Shown piece after piece: positions 12,488 through 60,628 of a stretch of DNA of 64,000 nt. The stretch is from Promethearchaeota archaeon (lineage in GTDB: Archaea > Asgardarchaeota > Thorarchaeia > Thorarchaeales > Thorarchaeaceae): NCBI GenBank assembly GCA_014728035.1, contig WJMJ01000059.1, forward strand, positions 310,001 to 374,000, in the 5' to 3' direction. Positions within the stretch are counted from its first letter, which is position 1. Each line of letters begins with the position of its first letter. The notes beneath the pieces were generated by a model, which saw only the letters and a list, made by a program, of their open reading frames with translations, made no database searches and was not told where the DNA came from. The translations under genes and the position numbers were made by a program.

Positions 12488-13291
12488 ATGAACTCTATCA
12501 ATCCAAAAATACTACAAATAATCAACTTCATAGCAGTTGTTGCTACAATTGTATTCAATCTTCTAGTAAATATTATTCCTCTAAATGGGGTTTACACTGG
12601 AGATGTGGCCAATTCGTATCCCAATTTCTTTACACCCCCTGGTTGGGTGTTTTCAATTTGGGGTGTCATATACATACTGTTAATCACTTTTGCAGTCTAT
12701 CAGGTTCGCTCAAATCAGACGGAAGAACCCTATATTCAAAAAATAGGCCTACTCTATCTGTTCAATGCTATCGCTAACATAGGCTGGCTAATAATATTCC
12801 ATTATTCATTTGGAAATCCGGGACTCTTTCTCTGGTCAGTTGTTCCTATTGTGTTGCTTTTGGTCATCTTACTATTGACATATGTGCAACTTAGCATTGG
12901 CCTGGAAGAGGTCCCTCTGAAACAGAAACTTGCAGTTCATCTGCCAATAAGTGTATATGCTGGCTGGATCTCTCTTGCAACTATTGCCAACATCGCATCA
13001 GCTCTGAATGTACTAATTCCAGGCATTCCTGCCGATCTTCAGCATCTTTGGACAGCAGCTGTGATTATCATCGCACTTCTGATTACCTTCCTTATGCTGT
13101 ATCTCCGTCATGACATTGCCTTCTCTCTTGTCGTGATCTGGGCGGGATTTGGTATTGCAATGAAACAGATGGCGATTCCAATAATCTTTGGAACCGCAAT
13201 TGCTGCAATATCTATAGTAGCTCTACTGATTATCATTCTACCGTTCATTCGCAAGCAGAGTTTTGTAGATTACTATCTAGTTCGATCTTGA
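12488..13291 (+). CDS. TspO/MBR-related membrane protein
   Basis: 267 residues with about eight membrane spans, longer than the five-span classic TspO. The signature FFTPPGWVFSIWGVIYILL corresponds to the PPGWVFxxVW motif of tryptophan-rich sensory proteins, and VYAGWISLATIANIA matches the later conserved helix. TspO-family proteins bind porphyrins and act in stress responses; the ligand of this long form is unknown. The promoter carries a TATA box plus palindrome at 12432-12456. A strong hairpin and T-run follow the stop. Confidence 0.8.
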   Translation: MNSINPKILQIINFIAVVATIVFNLLVNIIPLNGVYTGDVANSYPNFFTPPGWVFSIWGVIYILLITFAVYQVRSNQTEEPYIQKIGLLYLFNAIANIGWLIIFHYSFGNPGLFLWSVVPIVLLLVILLLTYVQLSIGLEEVPLKQKLAVHLPISVYAGWISLATIANIASALNVLIPGIPADLQHLWTAAVIIIALLITFLMLYLRHDIAFSLVVIWAGFGIAMKQMAIPIIFGTAIAAISIVALLIIILPFIRKQSFVDYYLVRS

Positions 13292-13330: not shown

Positions 13331-14107
13331 TTATGTTTCTTCTATAGAAAATGTTCCGACTTTGGGATTCTCTTCGAATCTCCAAGAGCCTGTTTTTCCA
13401 ACTTTTCTAGCTCCAAGTTCTGTGTGTAACATAGCAATACCACAGTCCAGTCTTTTTGAGAGTTTCAAGTCAAATTTACCATCAAAGGAAATGGTAATTG
13501 CTGAGTTTGAAAAACTGAATCTCCATGGCTGGCGATTTATTGCAGATGGTGCCAATCTTGCCGCATGTATGGCTACCTTCTGCCACTCGCTAATCACACC
13601 TTTGGAATCTAGAATCAAATCATCAACTGACTTTCTCTTGTGGTCAACATAATGCCCGATTGTATCATTCTTTTTGTCTGCAATTCCAACAGGCGAGATG
13701 CCAATAACTCTTTCATCTGATCCAAGTGCAGTAACTTCATTTGTTTTATCTGAATGGAAGAAACCTGTAATCCAACATGTGTTTAGCCCGAGTGCTGTTG
13801 CCTCAAGTATCGCTGCTTCTCCAATATATCCCATTACAACCTGATGTTCTTGTTCTTTTTGATCCACTATAAATTTCATATAGTGTGGAGCATTCTTAAC
13901 TTTGAAAATTGGGCCAATTATTCCCTTAAACGGATCTATCTCCGGTTCTCGAACTAATTCAATTCTAGCTCCGGGAAATGGTCTAAAATCTGTACATATT
14001 TTTTGTAACTTGTCTAATTTTTGGTCTTCGACTCTTTCTCCATTATACTTTCTTTGAGAATGGCGAAGAGGTATCGCATTAAACCATCTTTCAACTGGTA
14101 TCTTCAT
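13331..14107 (-). CDS. Nitroreductase-like flavoprotein (TM1586 type)
   Basis: 258 residues. The N-terminal IPLRHSQRKYNGERV is the RxSxRxY start of the nitroreductase fold. The internal duplication typical of the long single-chain TM nitroreductase type is visible: an APSAINRQPWRF block appears near residue 190 after a first half with GEAAILEATALGLNTCW. Expected role: FMN-dependent NAD(P)H oxidoreductase; substrate unknown. The first four bases overlap the stop of the methyltransferase-like gene upstream (ATGA), so both are probably one operon. Confidence 0.85.
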   Translation of the reverse strand: MKIPVERWFNAIPLRHSQRKYNGERVEDQKLDKLQKICTDFRPFPGARIELVREPEIDPFKGIIGPIFKVKNAPHYMKFIVDQKEQEHQVVMGYIGEAAILEATALGLNTCWITGFFHSDKTNEVTALGSDERVIGISPVGIADKKNDTIGHYVDHKRKSVDDLILDSKGVISEWQKVAIHAARLAPSAINRQPWRFSFSNSAITISFDGKFDLKLSKRLDCGIAMLHTELGARKVGKTGSWRFEENPKVGTFSIEET

Positions 14108-14718
14108 GTTCTGATTCTCGGTAATAACATAGGTACCTCATCCTTATACTCTTGGTAAGCGGAACCGAACTCGCGAACCATCTCTCTCTCCTCTATCATG
14201 CACAATAGGATATTCACCAATATGATAGGAATAGTAGCATACAACGCACTTTCAGCCTGGAATATTAAGACGATTCCAATGTGTGCCAAGATTCCGCCTA
14301 TATACTGTGGATGCCTTACTCTAGAATATATCCCAGTTGATACGACTTCTGTCGGATGATGTGTTTCAGCAACCTCAATTCCCATCTCTCGAACACCTGC
14401 GATGCCTAAATATGCTCCTGGGATTACAAATACAATTCCAAGTATGAGATGATGTAAGATTAGCTGTAATCCAAATACGGTGATGATTATTGGCTCTAAT
14501 CCTATATCTAGATAGAATCTCGGTTGAGGTGCTAACCAGATGCCAAACCAGAAGCCAAAGAATCCCCACCCAGACAACATGCCTAAAGCATTTCCAATCT
14601 TTTCTCCCGTTTCTTTACCAAATCTATCTCTCAAGGCAATATGTCTGACCGATATATAGTGAAATGGTACCATCAACACCATTCCAACAAGAAAGATTTC
14701 AAACCACATTTCACTCAC
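14104..14718 (-). CDS. Isoprenylcysteine methyltransferase-like (ICMT/PEMT) membrane protein
   Basis: 204 residues with about five membrane spans. The C-terminal SAM-binding core of the ICMT/PEMT superfamily is clear: GIYSRVRHPQYIGGIL, then EEREMVREFGSAYQEYKDEV and a final PMLLPR. In eukaryotes ICMT methylates prenylated GTPase tails. The two small GTPases in this window lack C-terminal cysteines, so a lipid or other small substrate is at least as likely. It overlaps the nitroreductase start by four bases. Confidence 0.88.
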   Translation of the reverse strand: MSEMWFEIFLVGMVLMVPFHYISVRHIALRDRFGKETGEKIGNALGMLSGWGFFGFWFGIWLAPQPRFYLDIGLEPIIITVFGLQLILHHLILGIVFVIPGAYLGIAGVREMGIEVAETHHPTEVVSTGIYSRVRHPQYIGGILAHIGIVLIFQAESALYATIPIILVNILLCMIEEREMVREFGSAYQEYKDEVPMLLPRIRT

Positions 14719-22079: not shown

Positions 22080-22661
22080 CTATTTTAGTTTCTCTTTTCT
22101 TTCCTTGTATACTTCAATCATGAGATTGGTAAGATCACAGAATGCATCTTCGATATTTTCTCCTGTTAGTGCAGAAGTTTCCTTAAATAAGACTGGAATA
22201 TTCATTCGGTCACTAAATACCGATGCAAATTTTTTTCCCTCATCAGTTGTGACGATATCATGCCTGCTCTTCTGTTCTCGCAGGTCTATCTTGTTTCCTA
22301 CAACTACTGATGGTGGTAACGATCCAATGTATTTGTGAGCTTCAACCAACCATTTACTTGCATTGTCAAATGAACGTCTATCAACTACTGAATAGACCAG
22401 AATCACCGCACTGCATCCTTGATAGTAATAACTCCGAATCTTCTCATAAGCCTCTTGTCCTGCTAAATCCCATATGACAAGTCGTATAGTATTATCATTG
22501 ACTTTAACATATTTCTGTGCAAAATCCACTCCAATTGTTGCGAGGTGTTGAGCAACAAAACCACTTCCCATGTATCTACGCCTGATGCTGGTTTTTCCGA
22601 CTGATGCATCGCCTATCAGTACCAGCTTAAACATCATGCTCCGTAACTTATCCGAACTCAC
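22080..22661 (-). CDS. Rab/Ras-like small GTPase
   Basis: 193 residues, the size of a eukaryotic Rab. All G motifs are present: GDASVGKTS (17-25), switch I Thr in ATIGVDF (42), WDLAGQE (64-70), NKID (123-126) and ETSAL (161-165). The catalytic Gln in AGQE is kept. The tail is Lys/Glu-rich with no cysteine, so no prenylation as in eukaryotic Rabs. The GTG start has AGGTG about ten bases upstream; ATGs eight and nine codons in are alternatives. Asgard genomes carry many such GTPases. It stands alone here, convergent with the CPBP protease. Confidence 0.95.
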   Translation of the reverse strand: MSSDKLRSMMFKLVLIGDASVGKTSIRRRYMGSGFVAQHLATIGVDFAQKYVKVNDNTIRLVIWDLAGQEAYEKIRSYYYQGCSAVILVYSVVDRRSFDNASKWLVEAHKYIGSLPPSVVVGNKIDLREQKSRHDIVTTDEGKKFASVFSDRMNIPVLFKETSALTGENIEDAFCDLTNLMIEVYKERKEKLK

Positions 22662-52521: not shown

Positions 52522-55500
52522 TTAGTCATAAGATATTGAATCATCAGTGTGCGTTTCATCTTCATCAACTGGTTTGATTAGATCTTTCTTAATGGCTTCC
52601 ATAATGAGATAGTAGACACGTCCTTCCTCGATACCACACATTGCCATCTTCTTCGCAAGTTCGTCAAGTTCAAGACCGCTGTCATCAGCAGTGCCAGCAC
52701 CTAACTCGAGACATTTCATACCTCTTGGAATTTCCTTATCCGCATCAAGTTTGTATCTATTTAGTAATGAGCCATCAAGGATTTCGTTGAACAATTCATC
52801 AAATGCATCCTGTGTTTCTAGATCAAGAATCTCTGCTGGAGTAATTCTGAAGAACTCGTCAAATTGTTCACCTACCGCCTCTCCGAATTCAATCATCTTC
52901 TCCCGATGATACATTGAGGGGCTTTTTACTGTGATAAATGCACAGACCAGAGTTTCAGTAGAAATCACTCTGATAATATCTGACACTGGTATTAGTGCAT
53001 CTGTTGGAATCAGACTGTCTTGTTCGACTTCCATTCTAAACTGAGTTACGGCTGTAATGAATGCTGAAATCATAGCCTCGTCGAAACCCCCTCTGAGGAA
53101 CTTAGAATAGACAGGTAGTCCGCTTGATCTATGAAGCACTAATACCCCGATTAAGTTGTGCAGGTCGTCAAATTGACGTTTGACTGCTTGATTTCTGAGA
53201 ATTTGCGCTCGTCTTCTCCTGTCATAAATCTTGTAACCTACTACAAGTGCAAGTGGACCTCCTATTACAAGAGCAATAATTGGCGACCAACTGACCACAA
53301 CTGCTGTTAGCCTTGCATTGTCATTGTACCTAGGTACCAGACTTGTTTCAAAGTATGTGTCCTCTAAAGTATGAAATTCCTTATCAACGAATATCCGAAT
53401 AGAATATGTCTCTTCTCCATAAGCAATTGGCATCGTTATTGTTGTAGTATAGACACCTGCTTCTTCTTCAGTCATTTGAATTAGCGATTGTGGGTCGTTA
53501 TCATCAAGCGATATTCCACATGTAACTTCTGCTCCAATTACTGGATTTCCTGTGTCACTCTCAATGAGTTTGATTCTGACTTCAAAATCCATACCCTCCA
53601 TTGCACTCAATGATGACAGAACATCTATTTCAATAGGTACTTGAATGACTGTATAATCAATTAGAAATCTCTGAGATTCAAATCCCTCTCTTTCAAAACG
53701 AATTGTGGTCTGGTATCTCCCTAATGCGATTGGCACTAATTTGATACCATAGCTTCCATTCTCGAAGCTAAATACCTCAAGCCAATCTGTAGAGTTTCCC
53801 AGAAGCACAGTTGAAGCTCCTTGGATTCGAGTATCGTTAGATGAAATGATGTAATCTTCAATCCACGTGTAATCTCGCCCATATACAATCTGGCCCAAAT
53901 CAATATCTTGAATCGAATCAGTTTCGATGTTGCGTACTTCAAGAATGAATTGTTTTGACTTGCTCTGGTAATTATCTTTTGAAGCGGATATTGTAAATGT
54001 CCATGTTCCAGTAGAGGTTGCGGTTATTTCTATACAGTAAAGTCCCGTGTCTTCGAAAATTGTGATGACCAATCCATCAAGGTCTGTAGTGTAGATATTG
54101 AGTTGAGCATCAGTAATGTTCTGAATCAAATCGGTACGTGAATACTGCACTAAAATATCGTGTGACTCTTTGTATCTAATCGATGCTGAAGTATCTCCAA
54201 TGAATGAAAGAGCTGTTGGAATCTCGGTTACTATGAGGCTGAATCCAACTGTTGCATTCTCATAATTTGATTGTACTGCTCTGAATGCAAGTGTATATGC
54301 TCCGATTGTGCTTGGTATTATTGTCACGTTATACTTGCCTGAACCCAGTGGAATCACATCAGAGAAGTTAAGACTACCAGGTGGGTCTAAAACTATGATT
54401 GTAGCTAAATCAAGCGTATTCATGTCTTCGTCAGTGAATATCATCTGTAACGTGTATGTCTGATCCAAAGCTATTGTTTTGCTTCCTGTATTTACCGTAA
54501 GTATTGAGGGAATATCATTGACCGTCAATGTGAATGTGATTGTTCTCGTCAAATAGTTAGTCCGATTTGCTTGAAACAGAATTGAATAAGTCGCTGTGAG
54601 ATTTGGTCTAAGTGTGACTTTATACCGTCCGTCACCGAGGGGAATTGCATCATCAATACTCATACCCCCTTCTGGATCTATACTTAGAACTGAGATATTT
54701 GCGCTGTCAAGACCATACCCTGTGTTGTTAGTGTATTGAATAATGATAGAAAAATTCTCTCCATACTGTATCATTGCAGAAGTACCATTCAGGATTTGTA
54801 TCTTAGTTCCAATAGACTCCACAATTACTGAAAATGATGTTACCTGACTCTGATAGTTCGAGAGATTAGCAGCCAATGTTACCAAGTAACTTCCGGATTG
54901 ATTTGCAATCACAGTGATGGTATAGTTTCCATTATCACTTTCGCTGATTGACATATCTAATCCAGAATACGAATTAACTAGACTTAGTGTAGCTCCTTCT
55001 AATCCATTATCCTCAAGGTCTGTGAATGAAGCTTGTACATTAAGCACATCCGAAATAGCAATAGTAGCACTTGTTACATTAACAATGAGAGATGTTGGAA
55101 CTTCAGAACCCGTCAAGGTGAATGTGGTTGTTTGGGTGACATGATTTGTGATATTTGCTCTGATTACAATAGTGAATGTTTCTGTATTTTGTGGGGACAG
55201 GTATATCGAGTAATAGCCATCTGTAATATCACTAAAAGTTCCATATGTCAAACCTATGGACGGCGAAACTTCCACTATAGCTACCGTTGCATTTTCCAAT
55301 CCAGAACCAGTGCCATTTAGATAGTGAACGACTAGATTATACGACTGATTGACTTGTACTATTCCTGAGGTACCATTGGCTCGAAGAAGTGAGGATGCTT
55401 TTGGCTCAAATATTAATGAGAATGAGGTAACACCGTCAACGTAATTGGATAAATCAGCAGCCACCTTTATGAGATATGTTCCCTGAAGATTTGCACTCAG

Positions 55501-58500
55501 AGTGAGTGTATAGTCACCATCTGATAATTCTGCAATTATCACACTGATATTTGCCGGTTGGTCAATAATGCTGACTAGTGCCCCGTCTAGACCATTTGCA
55601 TATTTATCTGCAAAGGAAACTTGGACATTAATCGAATCGTAAACTGGTAATGTTGCACTTGTAATGTTCACTGTTAGAGTTGTAGGAATTTCAGAACCAC
55701 TTAGGGTGAAGGTTAGAATTTTCGTCGCATGATTTAGACGTTCTGCTGTAATCTCTATTGTGAATGTGTTTTTGTTTTCAGGGGTTAGTAGAATATCGTA
55801 GTATCCATTATAGAGATGTGAAAATGAGGTATTTGTTAATCCTGTGGACGGTGTGATGCTTGTAATTTGGATATTTGCATCATCAAGACCAGATCCAGTA
55901 CTATTCGTATATCGGACAACTAGTCTATACTCATCGAGTATCTCTACTATTCCTGATGTACCATTGACACTCTGAAAGATGGTCCCTATTGGATTAACTG
56001 TTAGCGAAAATGATGCATAACTTATCTCGTAATTAGTTCGGTTTGCTGAGAACCTTAAGATATAGGTTCCAACCAATGAGGACTGAATTGAAATTGAATA
56101 GTTACCATTCGTTTCCTCTTGAATGTTTATGGAAACTTCTGTAGGTTGATCTATTACTGAGATTGTTGCCGAATCGAGCCCATTTGAATATACGTCTTCA
56201 TAAGATGCTTGAACAAATAGCGTGTCTGTGAGACCCATACTTACCGATGAAACATTTAGCGTAAGTGAAGTCTGAACTGGGGTGACCGCTAAAACAAAGG
56301 TAGTTGTCTGTGTTTCATGATTGGTTTTATTGGCACGTATCGTAAAGGTATACGTTTCGACCTGTGTTGGAGTTAACTCAATAGAATAGTATCCATTTGT
56401 ATCATCAACAAAAGTACCATAGGTCACTCCTGAGCTAGGTGACATTGAGGTTATCTGAACAGTAGCTCCTTCCATACCATGTCCAGTTGAATTCTCATAA
56501 AATACTGTGAAGTGGTAGCTCTGAAACACCTCTTGTATATCTGAGGTTCCATTCATACTAGTCAAGTCTGTATTTATTTTGACCACAATAAGAGTAAATG
56601 TTTCTTGAGTTGTTTCGTAGTAATCTTTCACTCCTGATAGGGTAACTGTATAGGTACCTGTTTGGAGAGTGGAAACGATCAGCGTATAGTTACCATCTCC
56701 ATGATCATTTGTGGTTCCTTGATTTAATCCTCCTGATGGTCCCGAATAGCTCATCTGGATATTCGCACCACTAATTCCGGTTCCATTTTCAAAAGCATAT
56801 GTCAAATCTATTGTTTCATCCATAAACACTTCAGTTTCAACTGGCTCGGAACCAACGTTAGTAAGTGTAAATACTGTTGGATATATTGACTCTATGATGA
56901 ATTGGCAACTGACCGAATCATAGTATGGTTGTGAGGCATTTACTACCACTGTAAATTGACCGTTGGACTCGAGTGAGGTATCAAAGCTTCCCTCCCACCA
57001 ATTTCTTAATAGATTTGGTTCGAAATTAACCGTACTTCCTGACCAATTGCCCTTGATTGTAGCTGCATCATTCATCAAATATTGACCATTATCTGCATCC
57101 AAAAATTGAATGAAGTTTGTCACAACTAACCCATGTTCTGTTTCAATTAGAGAATTGGCCGGGGTCAAAGTTGTTGCATGATACAACTCTAATAGTGCAA
57201 TTCCATAAGCCACCTCGGTTCCATTATTCCAGATGTAATCATAGAACCATTGCCCAGCTGTTGTATTTATGCCACCTAAAGTCCATGAGCTTGTGTTCAC
57301 TTTGTAATCTACCTCATTAGTAATAGAATCATCCGCCCATATTGTTCCATTTGGCATTATGAGTGAAACATTGACTGAATCATGCAGAAGGGGTTGATAT
57401 GTGCCATGACTTATTTCTATGGTTGCTCTGGTTTCGTTTCCGCTTCTGAATGTTGAAGTATTTTCCCATTGTCCCAAAGAGTTGTCATATTTTTGAACTG
57501 TTGCATTTGCAGCATAATTAGGTGAATCAATTATAATCTCCCACCAACCTAATCTGCTGATTAATGATGTGGGAATAGCAATTTCTCCATTTGTAATTGT
57601 ACACTGTGAAGTGACATCGTTTAGAAATGGGTCATATATTGTAGCATTCTCCCAATCTATTGGGTAATACAGAAATAGCTCTTGATCTTCATATGTGCTC
57701 GTAGAACCAAGATAGAAATAGAATTCGTTATCTGAGCTAGAACCAGGTTCTATAGAATATGTAACACCCGGTTTTGAGTTATCTGTTGTCCATGAGGAAT
57801 TTGTAAATCTGTGATTCAGTAGTCTTGATTCGTAATCGTATGATATGCTTGCATTGGATGATACTGTGATGTTGACTGGTGAATCGGTCCAAAAATTGTC
57901 GGCATATATCGTAGCATTTCCAATTCCTGATGCTCCTTCTATACTTGTAGAATTGGTATTTGCTTCAAATTGGAGATTGACACTCTCCGGGGTTGGTGCT
58001 GTTTCTCCAATCAAATGTACATTATCTAGATGAACTGTGATATATGCTGCGTTATCCAATCCATCTGCAACTGAGTCATTATCAAGGTCTTCTGCTCCAT
58101 TAAGATTCATTGTTTCATCGATTTCCAAGGCAATCTTGAAATCGAAATCACCAATTTCTGAAACTGTGAAGTCAATATCTCCTGTATTATACCATGTTCC
58201 CCTAGAAGTAAGTGTGGTCAGACTTTGATTCCATATAGCGGTATTATTTACATATGCTACTATTGAACAGTTACCAGAAAGTGAATCTCCACCTGGTTTT
58301 TCTAAGGGGCCCCGCAAATAGAAATAATCGAAGTTTAATGTGAAATTTTGGATTGTAGGAGTGTTTTGAATCGTTTGCATCCAATTTATCCAAGTTCCAG
58401 CAAAATGGTCATACTTTGTTCCTTGGTTCTTATATGCACCTTGATTTTCCAAAATCACATATACTGGATTGGTTGAGTCGTATGATGCTACTTGAGTCTG

Positions 58501-58983
58501 TGAAGGATCCGTATTGGAGCTGTAGGCATCCCATCCAAATGGATAATGACTCACAGAACCACTTGGATTGTAATTATAACCCGGTATGCCTTCATCAAAA
58601 GTCCCATTGTCTGCATAGAGCCGTTCAAGATTCCATAAGTTAATCTCTGCAAGACTTGCTTTCCAATTGTTATCCGTGTCGATTGGAAGCTCGAAGATTT
58701 CATTAAAGCCGGGTGCGGTAATCGTGCTGATAGTCCCTGTTGTGTAATAGCCTATAGTTTCCACTAATGCTGGTTCTAAAACTCCTGTCTTCAAACCACC
58801 CTCTGCTAAGAACCTCTCTGGGATGACCCCTTCTCTGTTTCCGCTGTCCGGCACAATCCTCTCTGAAAGTACCTTTTCCGTGAAATCATCTTGCTCGTCT
58901 TCCAATGTGGGATGTCCCACAAAGGCTGAAGCCACCAATAGAAACACCAAGGCAAGAACAGGGGTCATGCGAATTAATCGCAT
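52522..58983 (-). CDS. Giant cell-surface protein: Ig-like repeat stalk, one membrane span, cytoplasmic longin-like/HTH tail
   Basis: 2,153 residues. A signal peptide (MRLIRMTPVLALVFLLVASA) is followed by a large exported domain (~25-700) rich in Tyr, Asn and Trp. About 12 Ig-like repeats of ~99 residues follow (~700-1890); neighbours alternate in type, and each has a GxxxAxxxI-like block and a GxYxxxL block, with many N-x-S/T sequons. One span (~1892-1914) and an RRRR stop-transfer come next. The inside tail (~239 residues) has a longin/roadblock-like domain (IGVLVLHRSSGLPVYSKFL) and a final helix-turn-helix-like region. GAGGTGA lies six bases before the ATG. It looks like a receptor or adhesin that could signal to small GTPases; this is inference. 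Confidence 0.9.
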   Translation of the reverse strand: MRLIRMTPVLALVFLLVASAFVGHPTLEDEQDDFTEKVLSERIVPDSGNREGVIPERFLAEGGLKTGVLEPALVETIGYYTTGTISTITAPGFNEIFELPIDTDNNWKASLAEINLWNLERLYADNGTFDEGIPGYNYNPSGSVSHYPFGWDAYSSNTDPSQTQVASYDSTNPVYVILENQGAYKNQGTKYDHFAGTWINWMQTIQNTPTIQNFTLNFDYFYLRGPLEKPGGDSLSGNCSIVAYVNNTAIWNQSLTTLTSRGTWYNTGDIDFTVSEIGDFDFKIALEIDETMNLNGAEDLDNDSVADGLDNAAYITVHLDNVHLIGETAPTPESVNLQFEANTNSTSIEGASGIGNATIYADNFWTDSPVNITVSSNASISYDYESRLLNHRFTNSSWTTDNSKPGVTYSIEPGSSSDNEFYFYLGSTSTYEDQELFLYYPIDWENATIYDPFLNDVTSQCTITNGEIAIPTSLISRLGWWEIIIDSPNYAANATVQKYDNSLGQWENTSTFRSGNETRATIEISHGTYQPLLHDSVNVSLIMPNGTIWADDSITNEVDYKVNTSSWTLGGINTTAGQWFYDYIWNNGTEVAYGIALLELYHATTLTPANSLIETEHGLVVTNFIQFLDADNGQYLMNDAATIKGNWSGSTVNFEPNLLRNWWEGSFDTSLESNGQFTVVVNASQPYYDSVSCQFIIESIYPTVFTLTNVGSEPVETEVFMDETIDLTYAFENGTGISGANIQMSYSGPSGGLNQGTTNDHGDGNYTLIVSTLQTGTYTVTLSGVKDYYETTQETFTLIVVKINTDLTSMNGTSDIQEVFQSYHFTVFYENSTGHGMEGATVQITSMSPSSGVTYGTFVDDTNGYYSIELTPTQVETYTFTIRANKTNHETQTTTFVLAVTPVQTSLTLNVSSVSMGLTDTLFVQASYEDVYSNGLDSATISVIDQPTEVSINIQEETNGNYSISIQSSLVGTYILRFSANRTNYEISYASFSLTVNPIGTIFQSVNGTSGIVEILDEYRLVVRYTNSTGSGLDDANIQITSITPSTGLTNTSFSHLYNGYYDILLTPENKNTFTIEITAERLNHATKILTFTLSGSEIPTTLTVNITSATLPVYDSINVQVSFADKYANGLDGALVSIIDQPANISVIIAELSDGDYTLTLSANLQGTYLIKVAADLSNYVDGVTSFSLIFEPKASSLLRANGTSGIVQVNQSYNLVVHYLNGTGSGLENATVAIVEVSPSIGLTYGTFSDITDGYYSIYLSPQNTETFTIVIRANITNHVTQTTTFTLTGSEVPTSLIVNVTSATIAISDVLNVQASFTDLEDNGLEGATLSLVNSYSGLDMSISESDNGNYTITVIANQSGSYLVTLAANLSNYQSQVTSFSVIVESIGTKIQILNGTSAMIQYGENFSIIIQYTNNTGYGLDSANISVLSIDPEGGMSIDDAIPLGDGRYKVTLRPNLTATYSILFQANRTNYLTRTITFTLTVNDIPSILTVNTGSKTIALDQTYTLQMIFTDEDMNTLDLATIIVLDPPGSLNFSDVIPLGSGKYNVTIIPSTIGAYTLAFRAVQSNYENATVGFSLIVTEIPTALSFIGDTSASIRYKESHDILVQYSRTDLIQNITDAQLNIYTTDLDGLVITIFEDTGLYCIEITATSTGTWTFTISASKDNYQSKSKQFILEVRNIETDSIQDIDLGQIVYGRDYTWIEDYIISSNDTRIQGASTVLLGNSTDWLEVFSFENGSYGIKLVPIALGRYQTTIRFEREGFESQRFLIDYTVIQVPIEIDVLSSLSAMEGMDFEVRIKLIESDTGNPVIGAEVTCGISLDDNDPQSLIQMTEEEAGVYTTTITMPIAYGEETYSIRIFVDKEFHTLEDTYFETSLVPRYNDNARLTAVVVSWSPIIALVIGGPLALVVGYKIYDRRRRAQILRNQAVKRQFDDLHNLIGVLVLHRSSGLPVYSKFLRGGFDEAMISAFITAVTQFRMEVEQDSLIPTDALIPVSDIIRVISTETLVCAFITVKSPSMYHREKMIEFGEAVGEQFDEFFRITPAEILDLETQDAFDELFNEILDGSLLNRYKLDADKEIPRGMKCLELGAGTADDSGLELDELAKKMAMCGIEEGRVYYLIMEAIKKDLIKPVDEDETHTDDSISYD

Positions 58984-59434: not shown

Positions 59435-60628
59435 TTATTTTCTTCTTTTGGATGCTAATGCTATTGCCGCAGAAAATCCACCTATGATAGCTATCAGAAT
59501 TATGAGTGTATAATTTGGCAAGTTTCCATTGTCTTTTATTGTCGCTTTGAATGCGGAGGTAGCTTCAGTGTAGAATGGTGCGGTACTGTCACCAGATAAA
59601 GCGTCTATTAAGAGGCTATCATTATTCTCTGGCTCGTTTAACTCAAAGATACTAAAACCTGAAATATTGTTCAGCCTCCCATATCGGATTTTATTCACTA
59701 TCTCAGTAGCAACTTGTTCCTGTGTAATTGTTTCTTCTTGCCAGACACCAGAATACCATCCTAATCCCATGAATGTCTGTTCAACTACTTCTTCTGGAAA
59801 TGTGTTCCAGATGTCTACTTCTCCCTTCCACCAATCTGTATCAAAACAGTATTCCATTGATATGTGATAGTCCAGCTGCTCATTTGCAATCCAATCTACA
59901 GGATCCTGTTGGACTCCAAAACAGGTTGGATATCCATCATGGTTGTAACCAGCTTTATTCCAGCGATTTACAGAATCTGTTTCATATTCATTGAACCAGT
60001 CTATATACCATTGTGGAAGTTGATCTTCAGATGCACGAATCTCTCCAGAAAGTGGCCAGCCTGCAGTTGTTAAGAATTTATCTGGAAATAAATTAGATAT
60101 TTCCACTTTTGCCTGACCAATCAAATCACTTATCGCATTCATTTGAGTCGAGTTGACAGTTTCAAGTTCTTTTGAACGAATATAATCGAAATGAATCCCA
60201 TCAAGTTTTGGATATGTGGTTAAAAGTTGCTTTACCCAGCTGATTTGTTGAATCTGTTCCGTTTCATTGGTGAAATCAGCTGCAACCCCCTTCAGACGAT
60301 AGAGATTTGCAATCCATGCATGAACACTAAGACCATCAGCACTCAGCACATCAAGCATCACTGCGAAATCGTTTGGATCTGACCACCCTTTATTACCCCC
60401 GATGGGTGGTGCAATAAGGAATACTGTATTTAGATTTGCAGTACGAATTTTATTGATGGTATCATTTCGTATATTGTCAGAGTTAAATGCATAATCGTTG
60501 AGCCAGACTGCACGAGTTTCAATAGTTTGATTTGCAAAATTATGTTCTCCATTGGTTGGCATGAATGATATGCAAACTGTAATTAAACAAAAATAGACAA
60601 GTTGTTTCTTTGTAATTTGACAAATCAT
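59435..60628 (-). CDS. Exported, membrane-anchored glycosidase-like protein (GHL10/DUF187-like)
   Basis: 397 residues. A signal peptide (hydrophobic core VYFCLITVCISFM) precedes a TIM-barrel-like domain that starts ETRAVWLNDYAF and has DGIHFDYIRS and KFLTTAGWPLSGE, blocks seen in glycosyl-hydrolase-like 10 proteins. A C-terminal span with a Lys/Arg end (YTLIILIAIIGGFSAAIALA) should anchor it. Expected role: attack on a surface or environmental polysaccharide; substrate unknown. AGGA and GAGGGA precede the ATG. It may be part of the same surface gene group as the giant protein next to it. Confidence 0.8.
   Translation of the reverse strand: MICQITKKQLVYFCLITVCISFMPTNGEHNFANQTIETRAVWLNDYAFNSDNIRNDTINKIRTANLNTVFLIAPPIGGNKGWSDPNDFAVMLDVLSADGLSVHAWIANLYRLKGVAADFTNETEQIQQISWVKQLLTTYPKLDGIHFDYIRSKELETVNSTQMNAISDLIGQAKVEISNLFPDKFLTTAGWPLSGEIRASEDQLPQWYIDWFNEYETDSVNRWNKAGYNHDGYPTCFGVQQDPVDWIANEQLDYHISMEYCFDTDWWKGEVDIWNTFPEEVVEQTFMGLGWYSGVWQEETITQEQVATEIVNKIRYGRLNNISGFSIFELNEPENNDSLLIDALSGDSTAPFYTEATSAFKATIKDNGNLPNYTLIILIAIIGGFSAAIALASKRRK

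Follow-up and report, generated by a model that had tools for sequence, protein, structure and literature searches.

A giant single-pass surface protein of Thorarchaeota with a predicted longin/roadblock-like cytoplasmic tail, a candidate link between outside contacts and small GTPases

Introduction

Longin domains on membrane proteins are familiar from the longin SNAREs (Sec22b, VAMP7, Ykt6), in which the longin domain comes first and the anchor last, with a SNARE motif and no ectodomain. Archaeal S-layer proteins and bacterial Ig-repeat adhesins combine a signal peptide and Ig-like repeats with numerous glycosylation sites and a C-terminal span, beyond which there is generally no more than a short tail or anchor. 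In the NPRL2/NPRL3-type proteins of GATOR1 a longin is followed by winged-helix domains. Here we analyse a giant gene of the Thorarchaeota which shares features with each of these. It lies on the minus strand at positions 52522-58983 of a 64,000-nucleotide stretch of Promethearchaeota archaeon DNA (contig WJMJ01000059.1, positions 310,001 to 374,000; this whole stretch is called the window).

Dimers of roadblock (RB) and longin domains are platforms for small GTPases (PMC10933270). In the Streptomyces conservons (CvnA-D, e.g. Cvn9) a membrane sensor, a histidine kinase, is coupled to a roadblock protein and a Ras-like GTPase (PMC4316618), and an 'NPRL2-like longin' has been listed in Lokiarchaeum (PMC9834061).

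With the Roadblock/longin GTPase platforms (MglB, LAMTOR/Ragulator, TRAPP core, Asgard Roadblock) the tail of the giant protein shares the predicted core sheet-and-helix fold (AlphaFold2, Foldseek) and, tentatively, a remote in-register match to Roadblock proteins of its own genome, and the cell is likewise rich in Ras-like GTPases. Those platforms are soluble or peripheral, whereas the domain of the giant is the inner end of a membrane-spanning chain with an outside part of about 1870 residues, and carries a winged-helix-like extension. Like the longin SNAREs, of which Sec22b is closest by template modelling score (TM-score), the giant is a membrane protein with a predicted longin fold; the order of domain and anchor is however opposite, and an ectodomain is present. 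From S-layer proteins and Ig-repeat adhesins it differs by a folded two-domain cytoplasmic part after the span. NPRL2/NPRL3 share with the tail the order longin-like, then winged-helix-like, but are not surface proteins. The conservons are the closest functional analogue of the sensor-roadblock-GTPase coupling proposed below; there the components are separate genes at one locus, whereas the giant has sensor and roadblock-like part in one chain and no GTPase gene nearby.

Layout and membrane topology

The gene is one uninterrupted open reading frame (ORF) of 2153 residues, exactly where an earlier sequence-only reading of the window had placed it. Comparison of the window copy with its orthologue in a sister genome indicated purifying selection, with a ratio of non-synonymous to synonymous divergence (dN/dS) of about 0.10. 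From the N- to the C-terminus the chain consists of a signal peptide, all-beta outer domains (residues 66-720), 12 Ig-like repeats, one membrane span and a cytoplasmic tail of about 235 residues. The individual features are as follows (positions in the window; pLDDT, predicted local distance difference test):

52522..58983, minus strand: whole gene of the 2153-residue single-pass surface protein; one open frame, ATG start, stop at 52522-52524
58918..58983, minus strand: Sec-type signal peptide, residues 1 to about 22; hydropathy peak at 4-22, score 2.2, basic n-region
57979..58794, minus strand: membrane-distal N-terminal beta domain, residues about 64-335; all-beta in AlphaFold2, kept in 33 Thorarchaeota giants
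56824..57978, minus strand: two more beta domains, residues 336-720; kept in about 35 giants, model pLDDT about 90
53917..56811, minus strand: ten clear Ig-like repeats, each about 97 residues long, residues 725-1689; repeat profile, Pfam
53350..53772, minus strand: two divergent Ig-like repeats, residues about 1738-1878; weak profile matches (4.9e-4 and 3.9e-3)
53233..53310, minus strand: single transmembrane helix, residues about 1892-1917; hydropathy peak at 1895-1913, score 2.04, boundaries set by eye
53155..53235, minus strand: predicted juxtamembrane helix, residues 1917-1943; helix 2-28 of the AlphaFold2 model, pLDDT 81-92
52780..53154, minus strand: predicted longin/roadblock-like core, residues 1944-2068, b-b-a-(b)-b-b-a-a; AlphaFold2, Foldseek, profile comparison
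52570..52758, minus strand: predicted winged-helix-like domain, residues 2076-2138; E161-164 H172-182 H191-199 H205-217 E221-223, pLDDT mostly 80-94

Signal peptide, span and orientation were assigned by hydropathy, charge and sequon composition. The N-terminus is signal-peptide-like (MRLIRMTPVLALVFLLVASAFVG), and only two stretches of the whole chain, residues 4-22 and the peak at 1895-1913, rise above the hydropathy cut-off. The ectodomain holds 57 N-glycosylation sequons (N-X-S/T), against 29.3 +/- 4.6 in shuffled sequences, and the tail none. A basic stop-transfer stretch directly follows the transmembrane helix, with K+R at 5 of 15 positions after the span versus 2 of 15 before it. Because these three simple measures agree, an N-terminus outside and a tail inside are supported. 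Together with the model of the tail, hydropathy and composition describe a type I single-pass protein with a signal peptide, an outer N-terminus, one span and a folded inner tail. The signal peptide and single span of the sequence-only reading are therefore borne out, and its topology held in this simple hydropathy and charge test, which places the tail inside.

The same arrangement recurs in a set of 40 giants made up of the window copy, Thorarchaeota proteins and a few others. A segment with mean hydropathy of at least 1.6 lies just before the tail in 34 of them (at least 1.2 in all 40); in 38 of the 40 no other part of the chain beyond the N-terminal region is as hydrophobic, and a dense basic stretch follows the segment.

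The cytoplasmic tail

An AlphaFold2 model of residues 1916-2153, computed from 24 aligned Thorarchaeota tails, reached a pLDDT of 84 and a predicted TM-score (pTM) of 0.80. In this model the juxtamembrane helix leads on from the span to the longin core and sits where roadblock domains have their N-terminal helix. The core follows in the order E29-36, E42-47, H54-71, (E83), E89-93, E97-103, H109-126 and H140-153, the third strand being very short, which is the order b1-b2-a1-b3-b4-b5-a2-a3 of the longin fold. The module would accordingly keep an N-terminal helix like roadblock domains and an extra helix after the core like longins (compare PMC10933270). The end of the tail is modelled as a compact tri-helical domain between two short strands and is winged-helix-like; no sequence family matched it.

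In a Foldseek search against the PDB, the first 50 matches (E 1.2e-3 to 1.6e-2) were almost without exception chains of the longin/roadblock superfamily or complexes containing such chains. They included AP sigma, zeta-COP, the Sec22b longin, Rag/Gtr C-terminal domains, LAMTOR, MglB, Asgard Roadblock3, TRAPP and Fuzzy-Inturned. The Sec22b longin was the best single structural match, with a TM-score of 0.67-0.68 by target length; normalised by query, the TM-scores are low (0.3-0.4). Profile comparison, which does not depend on the model, gave tentative support from sequence: the core aligned in register with 11 Roadblock proteins of its own genome over 108 columns (hhalign E 2.9e-4, probability 40%), whereas five column shuffles gave E 0.21-0.62 and the winged-helix part 0.69. 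AlphaFold2 and Foldseek support folding of the longin/roadblock type with a tri-helical, winged-helix-like end, and the structure prediction upheld the longin-like plus helix-turn-helix-like tail that had been read from the letters alone. The longin core is the most conserved segment of the tail, and the winged-helix part is poorly conserved by comparison. The tail is acidic (D+E 19%, K+R 12%).

An NCBIfam search gave no match, a tail profile run against the sequences of solved structures gave chance-level matches only, and no Pfam Longin match in 20 genomes exceeded the cut-off. Membership in the GATOR1 NPRL2 family (PF06218) was considered and dropped, no match over the cut-off being found in 39 genomes and none at all in the own genome.

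The ectodomain

The AlphaFold2 model of the N-terminal beta domain is mostly confident, except for model residues 87-108. Domains 66-335, 336-545 and 546-720 are kept in 33-36 of the 40 giants and form a conserved series of all-beta outer domains (66-720). Foldseek matches to these domains spread over many folds with TM-scores of 0.1-0.2 by query and include SraP, PrgB and S-layer chains. They can be read only as 'all-beta surface module'.

A repeat profile built from nine repeats located the ten clear copies, and the two divergent ones at residues 1738-1785 and 1828-1878, in accordance with the 'about 12' repeats first described. Repeat types alternate in pairs, giving a super-period of 196 residues. 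Pfam domains of Ig type match above their curated cut-offs (CarboxypepD_reg 1e-16, Filamin 1e-12, Big_1 2e-9, Big_6 5e-7). The number of detectable repeats per giant ranges from 2 to 12; the stalk varies in length while its two ends are inherited together. Sequence and structure prediction together show a long, glycosylation-rich Ig-like stalk that keeps the conserved beta domains at a distance from the membrane.

Along the gene, synonymous divergence (pS) between the window copy and the sister-genome orthologue (window 52522-58983 versus L059:4545-10991) was 0.48-0.57 in residues 336-1510 and higher, 0.70-0.94, in the N-terminal domain, the last repeats and the tail. Because of this unevenness, recombination or gene conversion may have occurred in the ectodomain.

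Distribution and inheritance

The tail search matched 39 of 59 genomes, and all named matches of the genome scan (22/22) were Candidatus Thorarchaeota; the genome of the window belongs to the same family, which places the window in Thorarchaeota. This genome-wide locus search used a 9-row tail alignment, the full 26-row alignment being without a conserved stretch. Within the fetched loci, 33 further frames matched the tail at E below 1e-28, in 19 Thorarchaeota genomes including that of the window. The architecture is conserved in Thorarchaeota, where a genome has up to 7 matches. Domains 336-720 are present in 36 of 47 family genomes, nearly always in the same frame as the tail (compared by eye), and most exceptions lie at contig ends. 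Four nearly complete Thorarchaeota genomes (95-98%; G005, G010, G012, G013) have no giant-ectodomain match.

Over 32 proteins, the distances of ectodomain and tail are correlated (r 0.78, permutation p 0.0005; r 0.53 for the N-terminal domain), and their mean divergence is equal (0.59 for each). The tail is therefore an integral, co-inherited part of the protein.

A search for the same layout in other Asgards, which the sequence-only reading had suggested, found distant versions in several other families. The tail profile matched 198 of 228 Asgard genomes at E <= 1e-4, part of these matches being soluble longin-like proteins. Among the 62 non-family matches listed, 44 lie in open frames of at least 880 residues, and nearly all of 20 long non-family stretches show a signal peptide, a long ectodomain, one span and then the module. 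The winged-helix part is among the 220 columns over which the profiles of Thorarchaeota and other Asgard tails align (E 1.6e-25), and a giant of Asgard family f2 (L041) matches the profile of domains 336-720 at 3.5e-39.

Some individual copies deserve mention. A strikingly uniform giant of about 1930 residues, with the longin module at about 1610-1850, is common to several families (f2, f27 and f28; L110, L111, L112, L113, L115, L117); beyond the module it has an additional C-terminal stretch, which in many cases ends close to 'ATLLKLIPDL'. A tail in family f9 (L129:1-1323, G122:C331; E 3e-48) is far closer to Thorarchaeota than the rest of f9, reflecting either lateral transfer or a misbinned contig. 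The second giant paralogue of the sister genome (L060:6459-12352 / L091:3821-9738; G001:C1, about 634-640 kb) is split into two overlapping frames near its N-terminal third, by a frameshift, an assembly error or decay.

Interpretation and alternatives

We favour, at a probability of about 0.5, a surface receptor or adhesin that crosses the membrane once, its tail serving as a membrane-anchored longin platform for small GTPases. The outer domains would bind a ligand, a neighbouring cell or a surface, upon which the chains would cluster or re-orient. The tail domains could then pair via the conserved sheet and central helix, as in roadblock and longin domains, and the paired tails would form a platform recruiting one of the many Ras-like GTPases or its regulator, either by themselves or together with a free longin/roadblock protein. 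Outside contact would thereby set the GTPase state at that membrane patch. Judged from its predicted fold, the tail would bind the GTPase; this platform step is proposed because RB/longin dimers have an established role and both partners are abundant. The own genome has 36 Ras-family matches in 4.3 Mb; its roadblock proteins above the curated cut-off number about 13, true Roadblock proteins scoring up to 74 bits.

The two GTPases of the window, named by the earlier reading for binding tests with the tail, exist, and both are Ras-family ORFs by PF00071:

26028..26573, plus strand: Ras-family small GTPase, candidate partner only; PF00071 6.5e-23, 26 kb from the giant
22080..22661, minus strand: Ras-family small GTPase, candidate partner only; PF00071 3.8e-45 at G000:C25:332119-332628, 30 kb from the giant

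Given the 36 Ras-family matches of the genome, their position at 26-30 kb is not notable.

Several observations weigh against a receptor acting on GTPases. For the tail, no Foldseek match against the PDB fell below E 1e-3, and Pfam gave no match for residues 1916-2153 and neither Longin (PF13774) nor Roadblock (PF03259) among 26 tails. The fold is therefore best called longin/roadblock-like, with the tail a remote member at best. Longin domains also work in SNAREs and adaptors without regulating GTPases (PMC10933270). On the outside, no ligand-binding fold was identified, the best Foldseek matches being generic beta-sandwich surface proteins. The conserved ectodomain has no match in 11 of the 47 family genomes, several of them nearly complete, so the giant is not an indispensable sensor. 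As to gene order, none of the scanned neighbours of giants (34 loci and the window) is a GTPase gene. The genes that recur beside giants are housekeeping genes, in either of two settings, folE2-PTPS-DNA ligase or MscL-PEMT-AlkZ-TspO; a third setting is common to the window copy and the orthologue in the sister genome, where the downstream genes follow in the same series of sizes. With such neighbours, and the window GTPases 26-30 kb off, an operon link between giant and GTPase was rejected. Asgard small-GTPase genes generally lie outside operons of RB or longin genes (MK-D1; PMC10933270), and the lack of a GTPase neighbour therefore neither supports nor refutes the GTPase link.

A structural envelope or adhesion protein, its Ig stalk standing in an irregular Asgard coat and its tail dimerising or tied to inner scaffolds or the cytoskeleton with no GTPase regulation, appears to us a serious if rather unlikely alternative. 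The likeness of the ectodomain to adhesins and S-layer proteins (SraP, PrgB and S-layer chains in Foldseek) and a repeat number varying as in stalks fit it well, as does the surface of Lokiarchaeum, which has many protruding proteins and no highly ordered S-layer (PMC9834061). A plain anchor would however not need a 235-residue two-domain tail that is conserved like the ectodomain and recognisable across the phylum, and the giant is not the general coat, since those 11 family genomes have no match. Less probable still is a sorting device in which the tail acts like a SNARE or adaptor longin and steers the giant to protrusions, vesicles or sites of the endosomal sorting complex required for transport (ESCRT), the outside part being cargo. 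Sec22b as best structural match, AP sigma and zeta-COP at the head of the Foldseek list and the longin domains of Asgard ESCRT-associated proteins (PMC10936438) speak for such a role; the SNARE layout of N-terminal longin, SNARE motif and C-terminal anchor is nevertheless not seen in the giant, and no ESCRT or adaptor genes were found among the neighbours scanned.

Two further explanations seem very improbable. The longin likeness could be a modelling coincidence on an unrelated alpha/beta fold, as the Foldseek E values and the low TM-scores by query would allow, but a single superfamily fills the top 50, the model has the expected order of elements, and the in-register profile match to Roadblock proteins comes with negative controls. 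We give slightly less credit even to a regulator of the Notch type, whose tail would be cut off after ligand binding so that the winged-helix part acts on DNA. The single-span layout and the winged-helix-like C-terminal domain of the model would suit it; the poor conservation of that domain relative to the longin core and the want of a convincing DNA-binding family match do not, and a DNA-binding role is disfavoured by the acidic composition of the tail.

Returning to the receptor with a GTPase platform, its longin/roadblock-like inner end and relatives of the same layout across Asgard archaea make the giant a candidate for an ancient receptor coupling outside contacts to GTPase switches. More tentatively, and with the balance somewhat against it, the giants may form a pan-Asgard class of single-chain surface receptors in which extracellular recognition controls Ras-like GTPases via a membrane-anchored longin/roadblock tail, a design undescribed in bacteria and eukaryotes that could predate eukaryotic receptor-to-GTPase signalling. 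The literature searched contained no report of a surface receptor ending in a longin/roadblock tail, in Asgards or otherwise; its scope did not extend to preprints and most subscription journals, and an earlier mention is possible. The parts are known and the combination appears new, with a reasonable chance of a new receptor class. Asgard archaea have dozens of Ras-like GTPases and roadblock/longin proteins, for which the giant offers a concrete candidate input point for outside information; this bears on the origin of eukaryotic GTPase signalling and of contact-dependent cell behaviour. The giants may also supply sequences for the proteins that cryo-tomography shows protruding from the surface of Asgard cells.

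Other longin-like modules and neighbouring genes

Longin-like modules matching the tail profile occur elsewhere in the own genome, as tandem stand-alone genes (L051:5436-7330), with tetratricopeptide (TPR) repeats (L052:6434-8383, L054:4971-6980) and behind five membrane spans (L055:4024-5157). This variety of settings suggests a general adaptor module.

At 12488-13291 and 14104-14718 the window holds TspO-like and PEMT-type methyltransferase genes, which resemble the flanks of giants at the MscL-AlkZ locus in other Thorarchaeota; no giant lies between them here. Upstream of the giant, 59435-60628 (minus strand) encodes a 397-residue protein with a signal peptide, a C-terminal span and no Pfam match; its sequence gives the impression of a glycoside-hydrolase-like surface enzyme.

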